A stretch of DNA of 32,437 nt from Pseudomonadota bacterium (GTDB taxonomy: Bacteria; Pseudomonadota; Gammaproteobacteria; Burkholderiales; Burkholderiaceae_C), in NCBI GenBank assembly GCA_018261815.1, contig JAGTRL010000012.1:1-32437 (forward strand). The letters run 5' to 3'. The position numbers and the translations under genes were made by a program. Numbering within the stretch: position 1 is the first letter of the stretch; every line of letters begins with the position of its first letter. Positions 27,809 through 32,437 of the stretch are shown here, in pieces. The notes below the pieces were generated by a model. The model had not been told where the DNA came from, searched no databases, and saw only the letters and a list, made by a program, of their open reading frames with translations.

Positions 27809-30376
27809 ATGGCCACCGACATCGAGAAGGCACCCGCCGCGCTGCAGGAACTGGTCGCCGAGGTCGACACCGGCCGGCGCGAGCCCAAGGGTTTCGCCAG
27901 GCAGCTGATCTTCGGCACGGCGCTGGCCTGGGCGCTGTTCCAGCTGTGGTACGCCTCGCCACTGCCCTTCTTGCTGCGCTTCGGCGTGCTCAACGACACC
28001 GAGGCGCGCTCGATCCACCTGGCCTTCGCGCTGTTCCTGGCCTTCATGGCCTGGCCGGCCTTCAAGCGCTCGGCGCGCGATCGCATCCCGTTTTTCGACA
28101 TCGTCTTCGCGCTGGCTGGCGCCTTCGCCGGCGGCTACCTGCTGCTGTTCTATGCGCAACTGGCCACGCGACCGGGCCAGCCGACGACCATGGACATCGT
28201 GGTCGCCAGCGCCGGCATCCTGCTGCTGCTGGAAGCCACGCGCCGCGCGGTGGGCTGGCCGATGGCGGCGCTGGCCGCGCTGTTCCTGGCCTACTGCCTG
28301 CTGGGCCCGTACATGCCCGAGGTGCTGTCGCACAAGGGCGCGTCGCTGAACCGCCTGCTGTCGCACATGTGGCTCACCACCGAAGGTGTGTATGGCATCG
28401 CGCTGGGCGTGTCCACCGGCGCGATCTTCGTCTACGTGCTCTTCGGCAGCCTGCTCGACCGCGCCGGCGGCGGCAACTACATGATGCAGGTCAGCTTTGC
28501 CGCGCTCGGGCACCTGCGCGGCGGGCCGGCCAAGGTGGCGGTGGTGTCCTCGGCGCTGAACGGCATGATCAGCGGCAGCTCGGTCAGCAACGTGGTCAGC
28601 GGCGGCATCTTCACCATCCCGCTGATGAAGAAGGCCGGCTACGGCGGCGTCAAGGCCGGCGCGATCGAGACCATGTCCTCGGTCAACGGCCAGATCATGC
28701 CGCCGGTGATGGGCGCGGCCGCCTTCCTGATGGTCGAGTACGTCGGCATCTCCTATGCCGAAGTCGTCAAGCATGCGCTGCTGCCGGCGGTGCTGTCCTA
28801 CCTGGGGCTGCTGTACATCGTGCACCTGGAGGCGCTGAAGCTGGGCATGATGCCGATCATCAACCGCGTGCCACGCACCTGGGCCAACGCCATGCTGCGC
28901 CTGGGGTTGGGGCTGTCGGGCACGGTCATCGTCATTGCGCTGATGTACTACCTGCTGTCGGCGATCAAGTCGATGCTCGGCGAAAACGCCGGCTGGGCCG
29001 TGGCATTGGTGATGGCGGCGGTGTACCTGGCGGCCATCCGCCAGGCGGCGCGCTGCCCCGACCTGCCGCAGGACATCGACATCGACAACCCCAAGGCGCT
29101 GGACACCTGGCCCACGGTCGAGGCCGGGCTGCATTTCCTGCTGCCCATTGCCACGCTGATCTGGTGCCTGATGGTCGAGGAAATGTCGCCCTCACTGTCG
29201 GCCTTCTGGGCCATCGCGGTGCTGATCGTGCTGATGCTGACGCAGCGCTGGCTGATCGAGTTCTTCCGCGGCCAGCCCACCGCCGGTACGCTGCGCAACG
29301 GCTTCCACGAGGTGGTGCACGGCATGAACGACGGCTCGCGCAACATGATCGGCATCGGCGTGGCCACCGCCACCGCCGGCATCATCGTCGGCGCGATCAC
29401 GCTCACCGGCCTGGGCCTGCGCATGACCGAGTTCGTCGAATTCGTCAGCCAGGGCAACGTCATGGCAATGCTGCTGTTCATCGCCTTCGTCTGCCTGGTG
29501 CTCGGCCTGGGCGTGCCCACCACCGCCAACTACGTGCTGGTGGCCACGCTGATGGCGCCGGTGGTGGTCGAGCTGGGCGCGCAGAGCGGGCTGATCATCC
29601 CGCTGATCGCGGTGCACCTGTTCGTCTTCTATTACGGAATCATGGGCGACATCACGCCCCCTGTGGGGCTAGCGACCTTCGCGGCGGCCGCCATCAGCGG
29701 CGAAGACGCGATCAAGACCGGCATCCAGGGATCGATCTACGCACTGCGTACGGTCATCCTGCCCTTCATCTGGATCTTCAACCCGCAACTGCTGCTGATC
29801 GACATCCACAGCACCGCCGAGCTGATCCGCGTGGTCGTGGCCTGCAGCATTGCCACACTGGTCTTCGCGGCGGTGACGATGAACTGGTTCCGCGTCAAGA
29901 ACCACCTGTGGGAAACGGCGCTGCTGGCCGTGGCCGTGGTACTGCTGTTCCGGCCCGACTTCTTCATGGACCGCCTCACGCCGCCGACGCGCGACGCCCC
30001 GGCGGCCGAAGTCTTCGAGCTGGCCAAGAGCGCCCCGGACAACGCCACGCTGGCCATGGTGATCAAAGGCACCACCCTGGAGGGCGACGACATCACCAAG
30101 ACGGTGGCACTGCAGCTCGGTGAAGCCGGCGCCGATGGCCGCAAGCGCCTGGCCGACGCCGGCCTGCAGCTGGTGCCGCTGGGCGCCAACGTGCAGGTGG
30201 GTGCCGTCAAGTTCGGCTCCCGCGCCAAGCGCGGTGGCTTTGAGTCCGGCTGGGACGTGGCCGCGCTCAAGGTGCCCACCGGCGCGCCCAGTCCGCACTG
30301 GTTCTATCTGCCGGCGCTGCTGCTGGTGGCGCTGGTGTGGTGGAACCAGGGGCGGCGCATGCCATCCACACGCTGA
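27809..30376 (+). CDS. TRAP transporter fused permease (TAXI type, 4TM/12TM) with C-terminal DUF3394-like domain
   Basis: An 855-residue membrane protein combining the small (DctQ-like) and large (DctM-like) TRAP subunits, the usual form in TAXI systems. Many hydrophobic helices run from about 30 to 690. Characteristic DctM-type stretches are GPAKVAVVSSALNGMISGSSVSNVVSGGIFTIPLMKKAGY, SSVNGQIMPPVMGAAAFLMVEY, and LGLGVPTTANYVLVATLMAPVVVELG. From about 710 a helix leads into a soluble stretch of roughly 110 residues and a last helix (WFYLPALLLVALVWW), matching the DUF3394 domain seen on these permeases. TRAP transporters use ion gradients, not ATP. ATG 27809 has only a weak GAGAA purine run upstream. 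The stop is 10 bases before the presumed gcv promoter. Confidence 0.92.
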   Translation: MATDIEKAPAALQELVAEVDTGRREPKGFARQLIFGTALAWALFQLWYASPLPFLLRFGVLNDTEARSIHLAFALFLAFMAWPAFKRSARDRIPFFDIVFALAGAFAGGYLLLFYAQLATRPGQPTTMDIVVASAGILLLLEATRRAVGWPMAALAALFLAYCLLGPYMPEVLSHKGASLNRLLSHMWLTTEGVYGIALGVSTGAIFVYVLFGSLLDRAGGGNYMMQVSFAALGHLRGGPAKVAVVSSALNGMISGSSVSNVVSGGIFTIPLMKKAGYGGVKAGAIETMSSVNGQIMPPVMGAAAFLMVEYVGISYAEVVKHALLPAVLSYLGLLYIVHLEALKLGMMPIINRVPRTWANAMLRLGLGLSGTVIVIALMYYLLSAIKSMLGENAGWAVALVMAAVYLAAIRQAARCPDLPQDIDIDNPKALDTWPTVEAGLHFLLPIATLIWCLMVEEMSPSLSAFWAIAVLIVLMLTQRWLIEFFRGQPTAGTLRNGFHEVVHGMNDGSRNMIGIGVATATAGIIVGAITLTGLGLRMTEFVEFVSQGNVMAMLLFIAFVCLVLGLGVPTTANYVLVATLMAPVVVELGAQSGLIIPLIAVHLFVFYYGIMGDITPPVGLATFAAAAISGEDAIKTGIQGSIYALRTVILPFIWIFNPQLLLIDIHSTAELIRVVVACSIATLVFAAVTMNWFRVKNHLWETALLAVAVVLLFRPDFFMDRLTPPTRDAPAAEVFELAKSAPDNATLAMVIKGTTLEGDDITKTVALQLGEAGADGRKRLADAGLQLVPLGANVQVGAVKFGSRAKRGGFESGWDVAALKVPTGAPSPHWFYLPALLLVALVWWNQGRRMPSTR

Positions 30377-30379
30377 GCG

Positions 30380-30392
30380 CTCGGCTACACTG
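30380..30392 (+). promoter_or_regulatory. possible -10 box for the gcv leader
   Basis: TACACT (30386-30391) lies about seven to ten bases before the predicted 5' edge of the riboswitch, the right place for a -10 element. The -35 region would fall in the last codons of the permease gene and is not a good match. Low to moderate support, mainly from position. Confidence 0.35.
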
Positions 30393-30397
30393 CGCAG

Positions 30398-30603
30398 CGT
30401 CAGGAGAGAGCTCCTGCCCTTGCGGGCTGGGGCCGCCGAAGGCGCAGCGGCTAGACGCTTCGAACGCTCAGGCAAAAGGACTGGCAAGCGTCCCGGCGAC
30501 GGGGCGTTCCTCACTGGAGAGAGGTTGGCGCCAAGCCAGCCCACCGAAGGGGCAAGCGCGGCATTCAATGCAGCGCCAATCTCTCAGGTAAAGCGGACAG
30601 CGG
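30398..30603 (+). ncRNA. tandem glycine riboswitch (two aptamers) upstream of gcvT
   Basis: Two successive glycine aptamers. The first runs from about 30401 (CAGGAGAGAG) through CCGCCGAAGGCGCAGCGG to CGCTCAGGCAAAAGGACTG (30465-30483). The second runs from about 30513 (CTGGAGAGAGG) through CACCGAAGGGGCAAGCGC to ATCTCTCAGGTAAAGCGGAC (ends near 30598). The conserved cores CCGAAGG-GCA and CTCAGG(C/T)AAA occur twice in the correct order and spacing. In this class glycine binding usually turns on the glycine cleavage operon, and gcvT follows directly. Confidence 0.95.
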
Positions 30604-30610
30604 GGGCCCG

Positions 30611-30661
30611 GAACAACCAGAATCGGGTTGTTCACAGCCCTGGGAGCCTGTCATGTCCGCT
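30611..30661 (+). promoter_or_regulatory. probable expression platform of the glycine riboswitch
   Basis: GAACAACC (30611-30618) and GGTTGTTC (30626-30633) form a perfect 8-bp hairpin with no T-run behind it, so termination is unlikely. GGGAG (30642-30646) is the gcvT ribosome binding site. AGCGGACA at the 3' edge of aptamer 2 (30592-30599) is perfectly complementary to 30654-30661, which covers the second and third bases of the start codon and codons 2-3. This suggests control of translation. Confidence 0.5.
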
Positions 30662-31768
30662 GATCTGCTGAAGACCCCGCTGCACGCGCTGCATCTGGAA
30701 CTGGGTGCCCGCATGGTGCCCTTCGCCGGCTACGACATGCCGGTCAACTACCCCGGCGGCATCATTGCCGAGCACAAGCAGTGCCGCGAATCGGCGGCGC
30801 TGTTCGACGTCTCGCACATGGGTCAGGTGCGCCTGGTCGGCGACGACGCCGCCAGGGCACTGGAGACGCTGGTGCCGGTGGATGTGCTCGGCCTGGCCGT
30901 CGGCCAGCAACGCTACGCCCTGTTCACCGACGCCAGCGGCGGCATCCTCGACGACCTGATGGTCACGCGGCGTGAGGCCGACCTGCTGCTGGTGGTCAAC
31001 GCCGGCTGCAAGGACGCCGACATCCGCCACCTGGTCACCCACATCGGCCACCGCTGCCAGGTGGTGCCGCTGCCCGAGCGCGCCTTGCTGGCGTTGCAGG
31101 GCCCGCGCGCCGCCGAGGCGCTGGCGCACCTGAACCCGGCCGTGTCAAAGCTGGTGTTCATGACCGGCGGCGCCTTCAAGCTGGCCGGGGCCGATTGTTA
31201 TGTCACCCGCTCCGGCTACACCGGCGAGGACGGCTTCGAGATCTCGGTACCGGCGGAAGCCGCGGTGGCGCTGGCCCGTGCGCTGATCAACCTGCCGGAG
31301 GTCAAACCCGCGGGGCTGGGCGCGCGCGACACGCTGCGCCTGGAAGCCGGGCTGTGCCTGTACGGCCACGACATCGACACCCGCACCAGCCCGGTCCAGG
31401 CAGGGCTGACCTGGGCGATCCAGAAGGTGCGCCGACCCGGCGGCGAGCGCGCCGGCCACTACCCTGGCGCCGCCGCCATCGAAGGCCAGCTTGCCCATGG
31501 CGTGACGCACAAGCGCGTCGGCCTGATGGCGCTGGAGCGCGTGCCGGTGCGCGAAGGCAGCAAGCTGGTCGATGCCAAGGGCCACAAGCTGGGCACCGTG
31601 ACCAGCGGCACCATCGCGCCGACCATCAACCAGCCGATCGCGATGGCCTACCTGAGCGCCGAGCATGCGATAGCGAAGCACGAGGTCTATGCCGAAGTGC
31701 GCGGCCAGCAGGTGCCGATGCGCGTGACGCCGATGCCCTTCGTGCCGCACCGCTACTTCCGCGGCTGA
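30653..31768 (+). CDS. gcvT: glycine cleavage system T protein (aminomethyltransferase)
   Basis: A 371-residue tetrahydrofolate-dependent enzyme that takes the methylene group from the aminomethyl-lipoyl H protein, releasing ammonia and forming 5,10-methylene-THF. Opening KTPLHALHLELGARMVPFAGYDMPVNYPGGIIAEH and the SALFDVSHMGQVR stretch are diagnostic; TRSGYTGEDGFEI (about 183-195) and GLGARDTLRLEAGLCLYGHD (about 221-240) are folate-site motifs; it ends VPHRYFRG. Start ATG 30653 has GGGAG six bases upstream and follows the glycine riboswitch. gcvH starts 28 bases after its stop. Confidence 0.97.
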   Translation: MSADLLKTPLHALHLELGARMVPFAGYDMPVNYPGGIIAEHKQCRESAALFDVSHMGQVRLVGDDAARALETLVPVDVLGLAVGQQRYALFTDASGGILDDLMVTRREADLLLVVNAGCKDADIRHLVTHIGHRCQVVPLPERALLALQGPRAAEALAHLNPAVSKLVFMTGGAFKLAGADCYVTRSGYTGEDGFEISVPAEAAVALARALINLPEVKPAGLGARDTLRLEAGLCLYGHDIDTRTSPVQAGLTWAIQKVRRPGGERAGHYPGAAAIEGQLAHGVTHKRVGLMALERVPVREGSKLVDAKGHKLGTVTSGTIAPTINQPIAMAYLSAEHAIAKHEVYAEVRGQQVPMRVTPMPFVPHRYFRG

Positions 31769-31796: not shown

Positions 31797-32171
31797 ATGA
31801 CCACCATGTTCACGCCCGATCACGAATGGATCAACATCGAAGACCACGAGGCCGCCGTCGTCGGCATCACGCTGCACGCGCAGGAAGCGCTGGGCGACGT
31901 GGTCTTCGTCGACCTGCCCGCCGTCGGCAAGACGCTGAAGAAGGGCGAGGTCGCCGGCGTGGTCGAGTCGGTCAAGGCCGCGGCCGACCTGTACATGCCG
32001 GTGACCGGCGAAGTGGTCGAGGTCAACGAGGCGCTGCGCGCCGACCCCTCGCTGGCCAACAGCGACCCGATGGGCAACGGCTGGTTCTTCAAGGTGCATG
32101 TCACCGACATGGCCGAGTTCGACCAGCTGATGGATCCGCCCGGCTACGACGCGCTGCTCAAGACCCTCTGA
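31797..32171 (+). CDS. gcvH: glycine cleavage system H protein
   Basis: A 124-residue lipoyl carrier protein that shuttles the aminomethyl group between P, T and L proteins. The lipoylation site is Lys60 in [20 protein letters not shown]. Opening [21 protein letters not shown] and the C-terminal [15 protein letters not shown] are family hallmarks. ATG 31797 has AGGAG about eight bases upstream; a second in-frame ATG three codons later is possible but has worse spacing. gcvP begins 26 bases after the stop. Confidence 0.97.
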
Positions 32172-32197: not shown

Positions 32198-32437
32198 ATG
32201 TTGATGCCTGCGCTGAAGCCGCTCGACGAACTCGAGAACGATCGCGAGTTCACCGCCCGCCACATCGGACCCTATGCCGACGACGAGCAGCACATGCTGT
32301 CGGTGATCGGCGCCGCCAGCCGGCATGCGCTGATCGAGGCCATCGTGCCGCGCATCATCGCGCGCACGCAGCCGATGCAGTTGCCCGCGCCGCTGGGCGA
32401 AGCGCAGGCACTGGCCGAGTTGAAGGCCTTGGCCGCG
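32198..32437 (+). CDS. gcvP: glycine cleavage system P protein (glycine dehydrogenase, decarboxylating), N-terminal part only
   Basis: Eighty codons are visible before the right edge. The protein begins [18 protein letters not shown] and contains TARHIGP, the conserved N-terminal motif of P proteins, then [27 protein letters not shown] protein is the PLP enzyme that decarboxylates glycine and loads the H protein. Order gcvT-gcvH-gcvP is the usual operon. ATG 32198 is taken; an ATG two codons later is an alternative, and no strong ribosome binding site separates them. The PLP lysine region lies outside the window. Confidence 0.93.

Follow-up and report, generated by a model that had tools for sequence, protein, structure and literature searches.

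The window (the whole stretch of 32,437 nucleotides that was analysed) contains, at positions 30391–30610, two tandem aptamers located upstream of gcvT-gcvH-gcvP. Aptamer 1 (30391–30493, + strand) and aptamer 2 (30504–30610, + strand) match the Rfam model RF00504 with 45.1 and 55.7 bits, respectively, both above its gathering score of 32, and by this sequence match the element is a glycine riboswitch. The ATG at 30653–30655 opens gcvT (30653–31768, + strand), which codes for an aminomethyltransferase of 371 aa (PF01571, PF08669) and is followed on the same strand by gcvH (31797–32171; PF01597) and the 5' end of gcvP (32198–32437; PF02347), cut by the window. The best-scoring named relatives of this gcvT, among the best 80, are from Ideonella, Rubrivivax, Methylibium, Aquabacterium and Pelomonas. 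At the other side of the aptamers, the gene at 27809–30376 codes for a large DctM + DUF3394 (TRAP transporter) protein, with its stop placed 14 bases 5' of aptamer 1; a simple scan of 30100–30760 found no sigma-70-like promoter.

The P1 stem of aptamer 2 is formed, in the Rfam alignment, by the 5' strand CCUCACUG (30509–30516, + strand) and the 3' strand CAGCGGGG (30598–30605, + strand), with 7 of 8 standard pairs. Rfam, covariation and predicted folds place this 3' strand also in the 5' arm of an alternative (OFF) helix. The anti-start strand AGCGGACA (30592–30599, + strand), delimited by the sequence, the Rfam structure line and a register test in 190 leaders, combines the joining segment AGCGGA with the two bases that open the P1 3' strand. 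The original prediction held that this strand is perfectly complementary to the gcvT start, and all 8 of its bases indeed form Watson-Crick pairs with TGTCCGCT (30654–30661, + strand), which spans the TG of the ATG and codons 2–3. In the RNA this stretch (the UG of AUG and codons 2–3, UGUCCGCU) is the candidate masked start, on the basis of its sequence, conservation, register and codon choice. The strand had been described as an edge of the aptamer; it does lie at the end of aptamer 2, but the Rfam alignment assigns it to the core, with AGCGGA as an unpaired conserved joining segment and CA as the first bases of the P1 3' strand. Therefore AGCGGACA cannot serve the bound aptamer and the start codon simultaneously.

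Both arms of the proposed OFF stem would be brought close by a hairpin (30611–30633, + strand) that is perfect, as had been predicted, with arms GAACAACC (30611–30618) and GGTTGTTC (30626–30633) forming 8 bp around a loop of 7. This hairpin is recovered in the fold of 30585–30675 of the window, but its sequence is not conserved in the family alignment. It is followed by the anti-P1 segment GCCC (30637–30640, + strand), defined by the family alignment and covariation and paired in one free fold with 30604–30607; the corresponding segment of relatives reads GCCCT or GCCCC ahead of the Shine-Dalgarno (SD) sequence. The SD-like GGGAG (30642–30646, + strand), recognised by its sequence, is placed 6 nt 5' of the ATG. 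In three of the four free folds its GGG is paired to the CCC at 30607–30609, and the bases 5' of the ATG are paired as well.

Complementarity to the gcvT start in relatives

The complementarity was inspected in 198 gcvT loci from the genus and the GTDB family to which the window belongs, drawn among the matches listed (69 full-length rows and 129 further rows), with the partial genes of the first listing excluded and 18 listed gcvT rows excluded by hand before any leader was seen. A total of 190 leaders were kept; L164, L194, L212, L234, L250, L301 and L332 were dropped for a missing motif or in-frame start and L210 as a duplicate. A first start caller put several starts inside the leader hairpin, and the main counts come from a tighter second caller, with which some wrong start calls persist. 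The first caller underlies the set of 183 gcvT leaders, the comparison with controls and the counts on gcvT genes that lack the riboswitch, and the second the counts on 190 leaders together with the register, codon, duplex, fold-pairing and DadA statistics. As controls, 222 predicted gene starts were taken with the first caller from stretches of two related genomes through a simple ORF and GC filter; being predictions, they are less certain than the gcvT starts, and 95 of them are GTG or TTG, so some are probably wrong. A non-redundant subset comprises 133 leaders, 110 of which, with 50–85 nt from GGACA to the start, were aligned with MAFFT.

The sequence NTGTCC was found at the called start of 113 of the 190 leaders (ATG in 96, TTG in 9 and GTG in 8) and NTGTCCGC in 62; the non-redundant subset gave 75 and 37 of 133, respectively. 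With the first caller these values were 100 and 56 of 183 gcvT leaders, against 6 and 0 of the 222 control genes. Eight contiguous Watson-Crick pairs with the aptamer end TAAAGCGGACAG could be formed in 22 of 183 gcvT leaders and at none of 222 control starts, so the complementarity exceeds chance, although any NTG start codon supplies two of the eight pairs (CA:TG) by itself. The complementarity is thus kept in the orthologous leaders, where the original prediction had proposed to look for it, and it is kept in exact register: when the 190 leaders were scanned over ±14 bases, 77% of the cells were paired at the true register against 25–43% at the others, and at least 7 of the 8 pairs were present in 78 of 190 leaders at the true register and in at most one leader at any other offset. 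No complement at or near the start was seen in 37 of 190 leaders, some of them wrong start calls, against 204 of 222 control genes under the same rule. Compensation at the variable (flexible) aptamer positions, among them the GC that precedes GGACA, was mostly not found in the leaders of the family.

Three of the dropped leaders show particular arrangements. On a short contig with no Rfam match, L212 has the aptamer 2 end GCGGCCAG rather than GCGGACAG and the start TTGTCCGCTG. The L234 leader has a single Rfam aptamer match and an aptamer 2 that lacks the CTCAGG..GGACA end, and its start is still TTGTCTGCTGAC. The L301 leader is of the start-masking type, with TTGTCCGCC; there the conserved GcvT frame has no in-frame start, which points to a frameshift or sequencing error near the N-terminus.

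The P1/anti-P1 helix and predicted folds

In the family alignment (110 leaders) the P1 3' strand pairs with the segment immediately 5' of the SD. This P1/anti-P1 helix was paired in 81.2% of cells against 76.2% in shuffled alignments, and its covariation score was 0.248 against 0.179, neither value being reached in any of 500 shuffles; at one of its pairs A-U occurs 41 times, G-C 27 times and G-U 26 times. Among 181 leaders, the duplexes formed by each leader's own strands were more stable than permuted ones (–14.78 vs –13.30 kcal/mol, z –9.2); neither the shuffle nor the permutation controls keep relatedness. One of the five measures, the number of pairs changed on both sides (4), was unremarkable, as 77 of 500 shuffles reached it. 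The helix over the start codon shows no covariation (77.3% paired, against 77.3% in shuffles), so that of the covariation anticipated in relatives nothing is seen at the start helix, for which it had been proposed, and it is the P1/anti-P1 helix that displays it. Lack of covariation at the start is expected if glycine binding fixes the aptamer side of the helix, and it also means that the classical proof is missing for the start pairing. RNAalifold gave no consensus structure for the MAFFT alignment of 110 leaders, since the middle hairpin is not alignable. The start pairing extends the P1/anti-P1 helix, and it was this second helix that the original prediction had missed.

Predicted folds were more stable than expected in the window (z –3.4 for 30585–30675 and –2.2 for 30500–30690) and, on average, in the region from aptamer end to start of 186 leaders (mean z –2.69), in 151 of which the minimum free energy fold pairs at least 4 bases of GGACA with the final 22 nt. 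The probability of the 8-bp helix over the start was 0.81–0.89 in 30385–30680, 0.77–0.84 in 30385–30720, 0.61–0.67 in 30585–30680 and 0.15–0.16 in 30504–30680, and the prediction is therefore dependent on the segment folded. In the last of these segments the aptamer strand moves onto codons 2–6 and leaves the AUG open; in 30504–30720 all eight bases find partners within 30636–30664, each with a probability of at least 0.91. The aptamer end was paired into positions –16 to +9 with a mean probability of 0.59 across 187 leaders, against 0.14 when start regions of control genes were placed there. Imposing the aptamer opened the start codon by at least 0.3 in 48 of 187 leaders, against 15 of 187 with control start regions.

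In the window, the energy needed to impose aptamer 2 is 9.0 kcal/mol for both folds that begin at 30385 and 16.4–17.9 kcal/mol for both that begin at 30504, and in RNAfold the forced aptamer 2 leaves the SD bases unfreed. On these models the choice between folds would need to occur during transcription, or ligand and tertiary contacts would have to pay for it; with RNAfold alone no clean switch is seen.

A candidate translational switch and its alternatives

The anatomy, the conserved complementarity and the P1/anti-P1 covariation described above lead us to propose that one RNA strand probably either helps to bind glycine or covers the gcvT start, with the gene on when glycine is plentiful. 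The tandem riboswitch would act as an ON switch at the level of translation and, in its OFF state, bury the start region in a long hairpin, a reading to which we give a probability of about 0.6. In the absence of glycine, the 3' portion of aptamer 2 (AGCGGA plus the P1 3' strand) would fold forward into this long hairpin, where the P1 strand would pair with the segment just before or at the SD, and AGCGGACA would prolong the stem across the UG of the start codon and on through codons 2–3, so that ribosomes could not initiate. With glycine, the same strand would be retained by P1 and the aptamer core, which would prevent the hairpin, and gcvTHP would be translated. We infer that masking of the start is the regulatory step and that control is exerted at translation; the ON direction is suggested by the function of gcvT and by published glycine ON switches.

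The alternative that survives best is that the P1/anti-P1 helix does the switching by shading the SD region, the start-codon pairing being an incidental extension of little effect. Between the two helices covariation is confined to P1/anti-P1, and TGTCC is missing at the called start of 77 of 190 leaders while the P1/anti-P1 pairs form in more than four fifths of the cells; moreover, the stretch masked in Neisseria gonorrhoeae extends from –1 to –11 and, in the accessible part of that study, the coding sequence is not needed (PMC13104608). Against an incidental role of the start pairing stand its exact register and the choice of codons 2 and 3, which departs from the gene's own usage towards pairing, and on balance we regard this alternative as unlikely.

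The same codons bear on a second explanation, namely that the complementarity reflects a conserved Met-Ser-Ala N-terminus together with start-proximal codon bias, and that start pairing is unselected. Ser2 is encoded by TCC in 113 of 138 leaders, against 54 of 624 serines in the gene body, 59 of 122 in codons 4–15 and 6 of 22 at position 2 of control genes; this excess is significant with respect to codons 4–15 (binomial p 4e-16, relatedness ignored) and to the control Ser2 (Fisher p 6e-7). Ala3 is GCT in 24 of 62 leaders after TGTCC, against 44 of 2782 alanines of the gene body and 42 of the 304 within codons 4–15. These choices appear to favour pairing beyond a general start-proximal bias, with p-values that ignore relatedness. 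However, codons 4–15 themselves favour TCC, and less so GCT, as the bias would have it; GCT is also found at Ala3 in 11 of 20 leaders without TGTCC and is thus not tied to it, and other serine columns of gcvT are likewise dominated by a single codon, though this is TCG or AGC. Inheritance of the N-terminus is made possible by four relatives with no Rfam aptamer (E 0.1) that retain a TGTC start (L164 TGTCT, L194 TGTCC, L332 TGTCA and L362 TGTCC), and is favoured further by the gcvT genes of Pseudomonas that lack the riboswitch motif, of which 5 of 7 start with ATGTCC. The two pairs that any start codon provides and the absence of covariation in the start helix point in the same direction. Besides the Ser2 excess, what speaks against this explanation is that GTCCG, TCCGC or TGTCC occurs a short way upstream in 20 of 68 leaders without TGTCY at the start but in 17 of the 122 others (p 0.013), elements that weakly suggest a relocated complement. 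We consider an unselected start pairing less probable still than an incidental one.

Control of gcvT by transcription termination, intrinsic or Rho-dependent, instead of translation would find some support in other families of the order, where leaders read by eye (L114, L135, L138, L012, L018 and L022) contain a terminator-like hairpin whose 5' arm is the P1 3' strand and which runs out into a U run. A simple scan of this window detected nothing resembling a terminator from aptamer 2 to gcvT, and a U run between aptamer and start is present in only 9 of 190 leaders of the family, which argues against an intrinsic terminator. Termination is in our view a very improbable mechanism here. Among further lineages of the order, reading by eye also assigned to the start-masking type L360, an aptamer-bearing locus of f24 at the same place as L013, and one of two loci of f30 (L140 and not L361). 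It recognised a related form in two of three loci of f39, another family of the order (L370 and L373, not L372), where a stem abuts the ATG and this is followed by TCT or TCA. In L370 and L373 the stem CGGGACG:CGTCCCG lies directly at the ATG, and the TCT or TCA after it can pair with GGACA. Taken together, these leaders suggest that expression platforms have been exchanged on one scaffold within the order.

The opposite logic, in which glycine binding would repress gcvT, can practically be discarded: glycine OFF switches occur upstream of transporters, according to the accessible text of PMC13104608, but the present analysis found no support for one here, the aptamer-bound fold would withdraw the masking strand, and gcvT degrades glycine.

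The translational ON switch with a masked start thus remains our preferred reading. The masking model of the original prediction is partly supported: it was right in kind, with a mutual exclusion that follows from the anatomy, and incomplete in that anatomy, since the helix that covaries is the one between the P1 3' strand and the pre-start segment; its start-codon step is unproven.

A second riboswitch gene and known systems

A second glycine riboswitch was observed before a gene for a DadA-like oxidoreductase (named from its N-terminal sequence) in other genomes of the genus and near relatives, at L389–L397 and at the aptamer-bearing loci among L409–L443. The aptamer motif is present in 46 of a set of 60 loci of this gene. 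In the near loci the end of the aptamer, which reads CCAAGGACAG or CCGAGGACAG in most cases, is able to pair with bases that overlap the SD, with 10 pairs including G-U in L437 and L415. The set was divided by hand into near and distant loci after the sequences had been seen. In the 22 near loci the aptamer end pairs with its own ribosome binding site (RBS) at –9.6 kcal/mol, against –6.3 kcal/mol with control RBS, while own versus permuted pairings within the set did not differ significantly (p 0.075); no pairing between aptamer end and RBS was found in the 23 distant loci (L446–L468), which belong to more remote members of the family and in many cases show AAAGG ahead of the start in a long leader. 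The pairing at the DadA-like gene is suggestive as a lead only, with group statistics that are inconclusive.

A broader proposal, which we put forward tentatively as somewhat less probable than the switch itself, is that the nearly invariant aptamer core strand GCGGACA acts family-wide as an anti-start strand dictating codons 2–3 of gcvT, that in the same genus the same strand of the second riboswitch is directed against the SD region of the DadA-like gene, which is unrelated to gcvT, and that the order has swapped terminators for start masking on a scaffold provided by the P1 strand. If true, a conserved ligand-binding strand would double as the masking strand, and an ON switch would consequently need no separate anti-sequestor. 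Such platforms might then be revealed by a sequence signature (NUG start, UCC as codon 2 and GCU as codon 3), and synonymous codon changes would break the OFF state with aptamer and protein intact.

In the ON switches with intrinsic terminators of the Bacillus subtilis gcvT type, the P1 strand is common to the aptamer and to the alternative hairpin. In that type a U run lies at the end of this hairpin, whereas in the window the hairpin runs into the start codon. The RF00504 model describes a single aptamer that ends just past P1 and does not describe the expression platform, and no description of start-codon pairing or of expression platforms of this group was found in the literature searched, as far as its accessible text extends.

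The closest system is gcvT of Neisseria gonorrhoeae, reported as a translational tandem glycine ON riboswitch with mutational support (J Bacteriol 2026; PMC13104608). In the accessible part of that article it shares with the window the tandem aptamers before gcvT and a region in which no Rho-independent terminator is predicted and, as proposed here, its OFF state pairs aptamer 2 with the initiation region while glycine retains the pairing bases in the aptamer. The strands involved differ: in N. gonorrhoeae nucleotides of P3a, P3 and P1 pair with positions –1 to –11 and, as a gfp fusion indicates, the coding sequence can be dispensed with (PMC13104608, accessible part), whereas in the window the joining segment and P1 strand face the start codon and codons 2–3, and a separate P1/anti-P1 helix covaries. 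By analogy, the switch would work like that of N. gonorrhoeae gcvT with another masking strand and another target, the glycine response being putative here. Riboswitches that bury the RBS within the aptamer core (Barrick and Breaker 2007; PMC2258182) likewise bring, in the accessible text, core bases and the initiation region into one pairing system; in them the RBS lies in the ligand-bound core, with OFF logic, whereas in the window masking of the start by the core strand would be limited to the unbound state.
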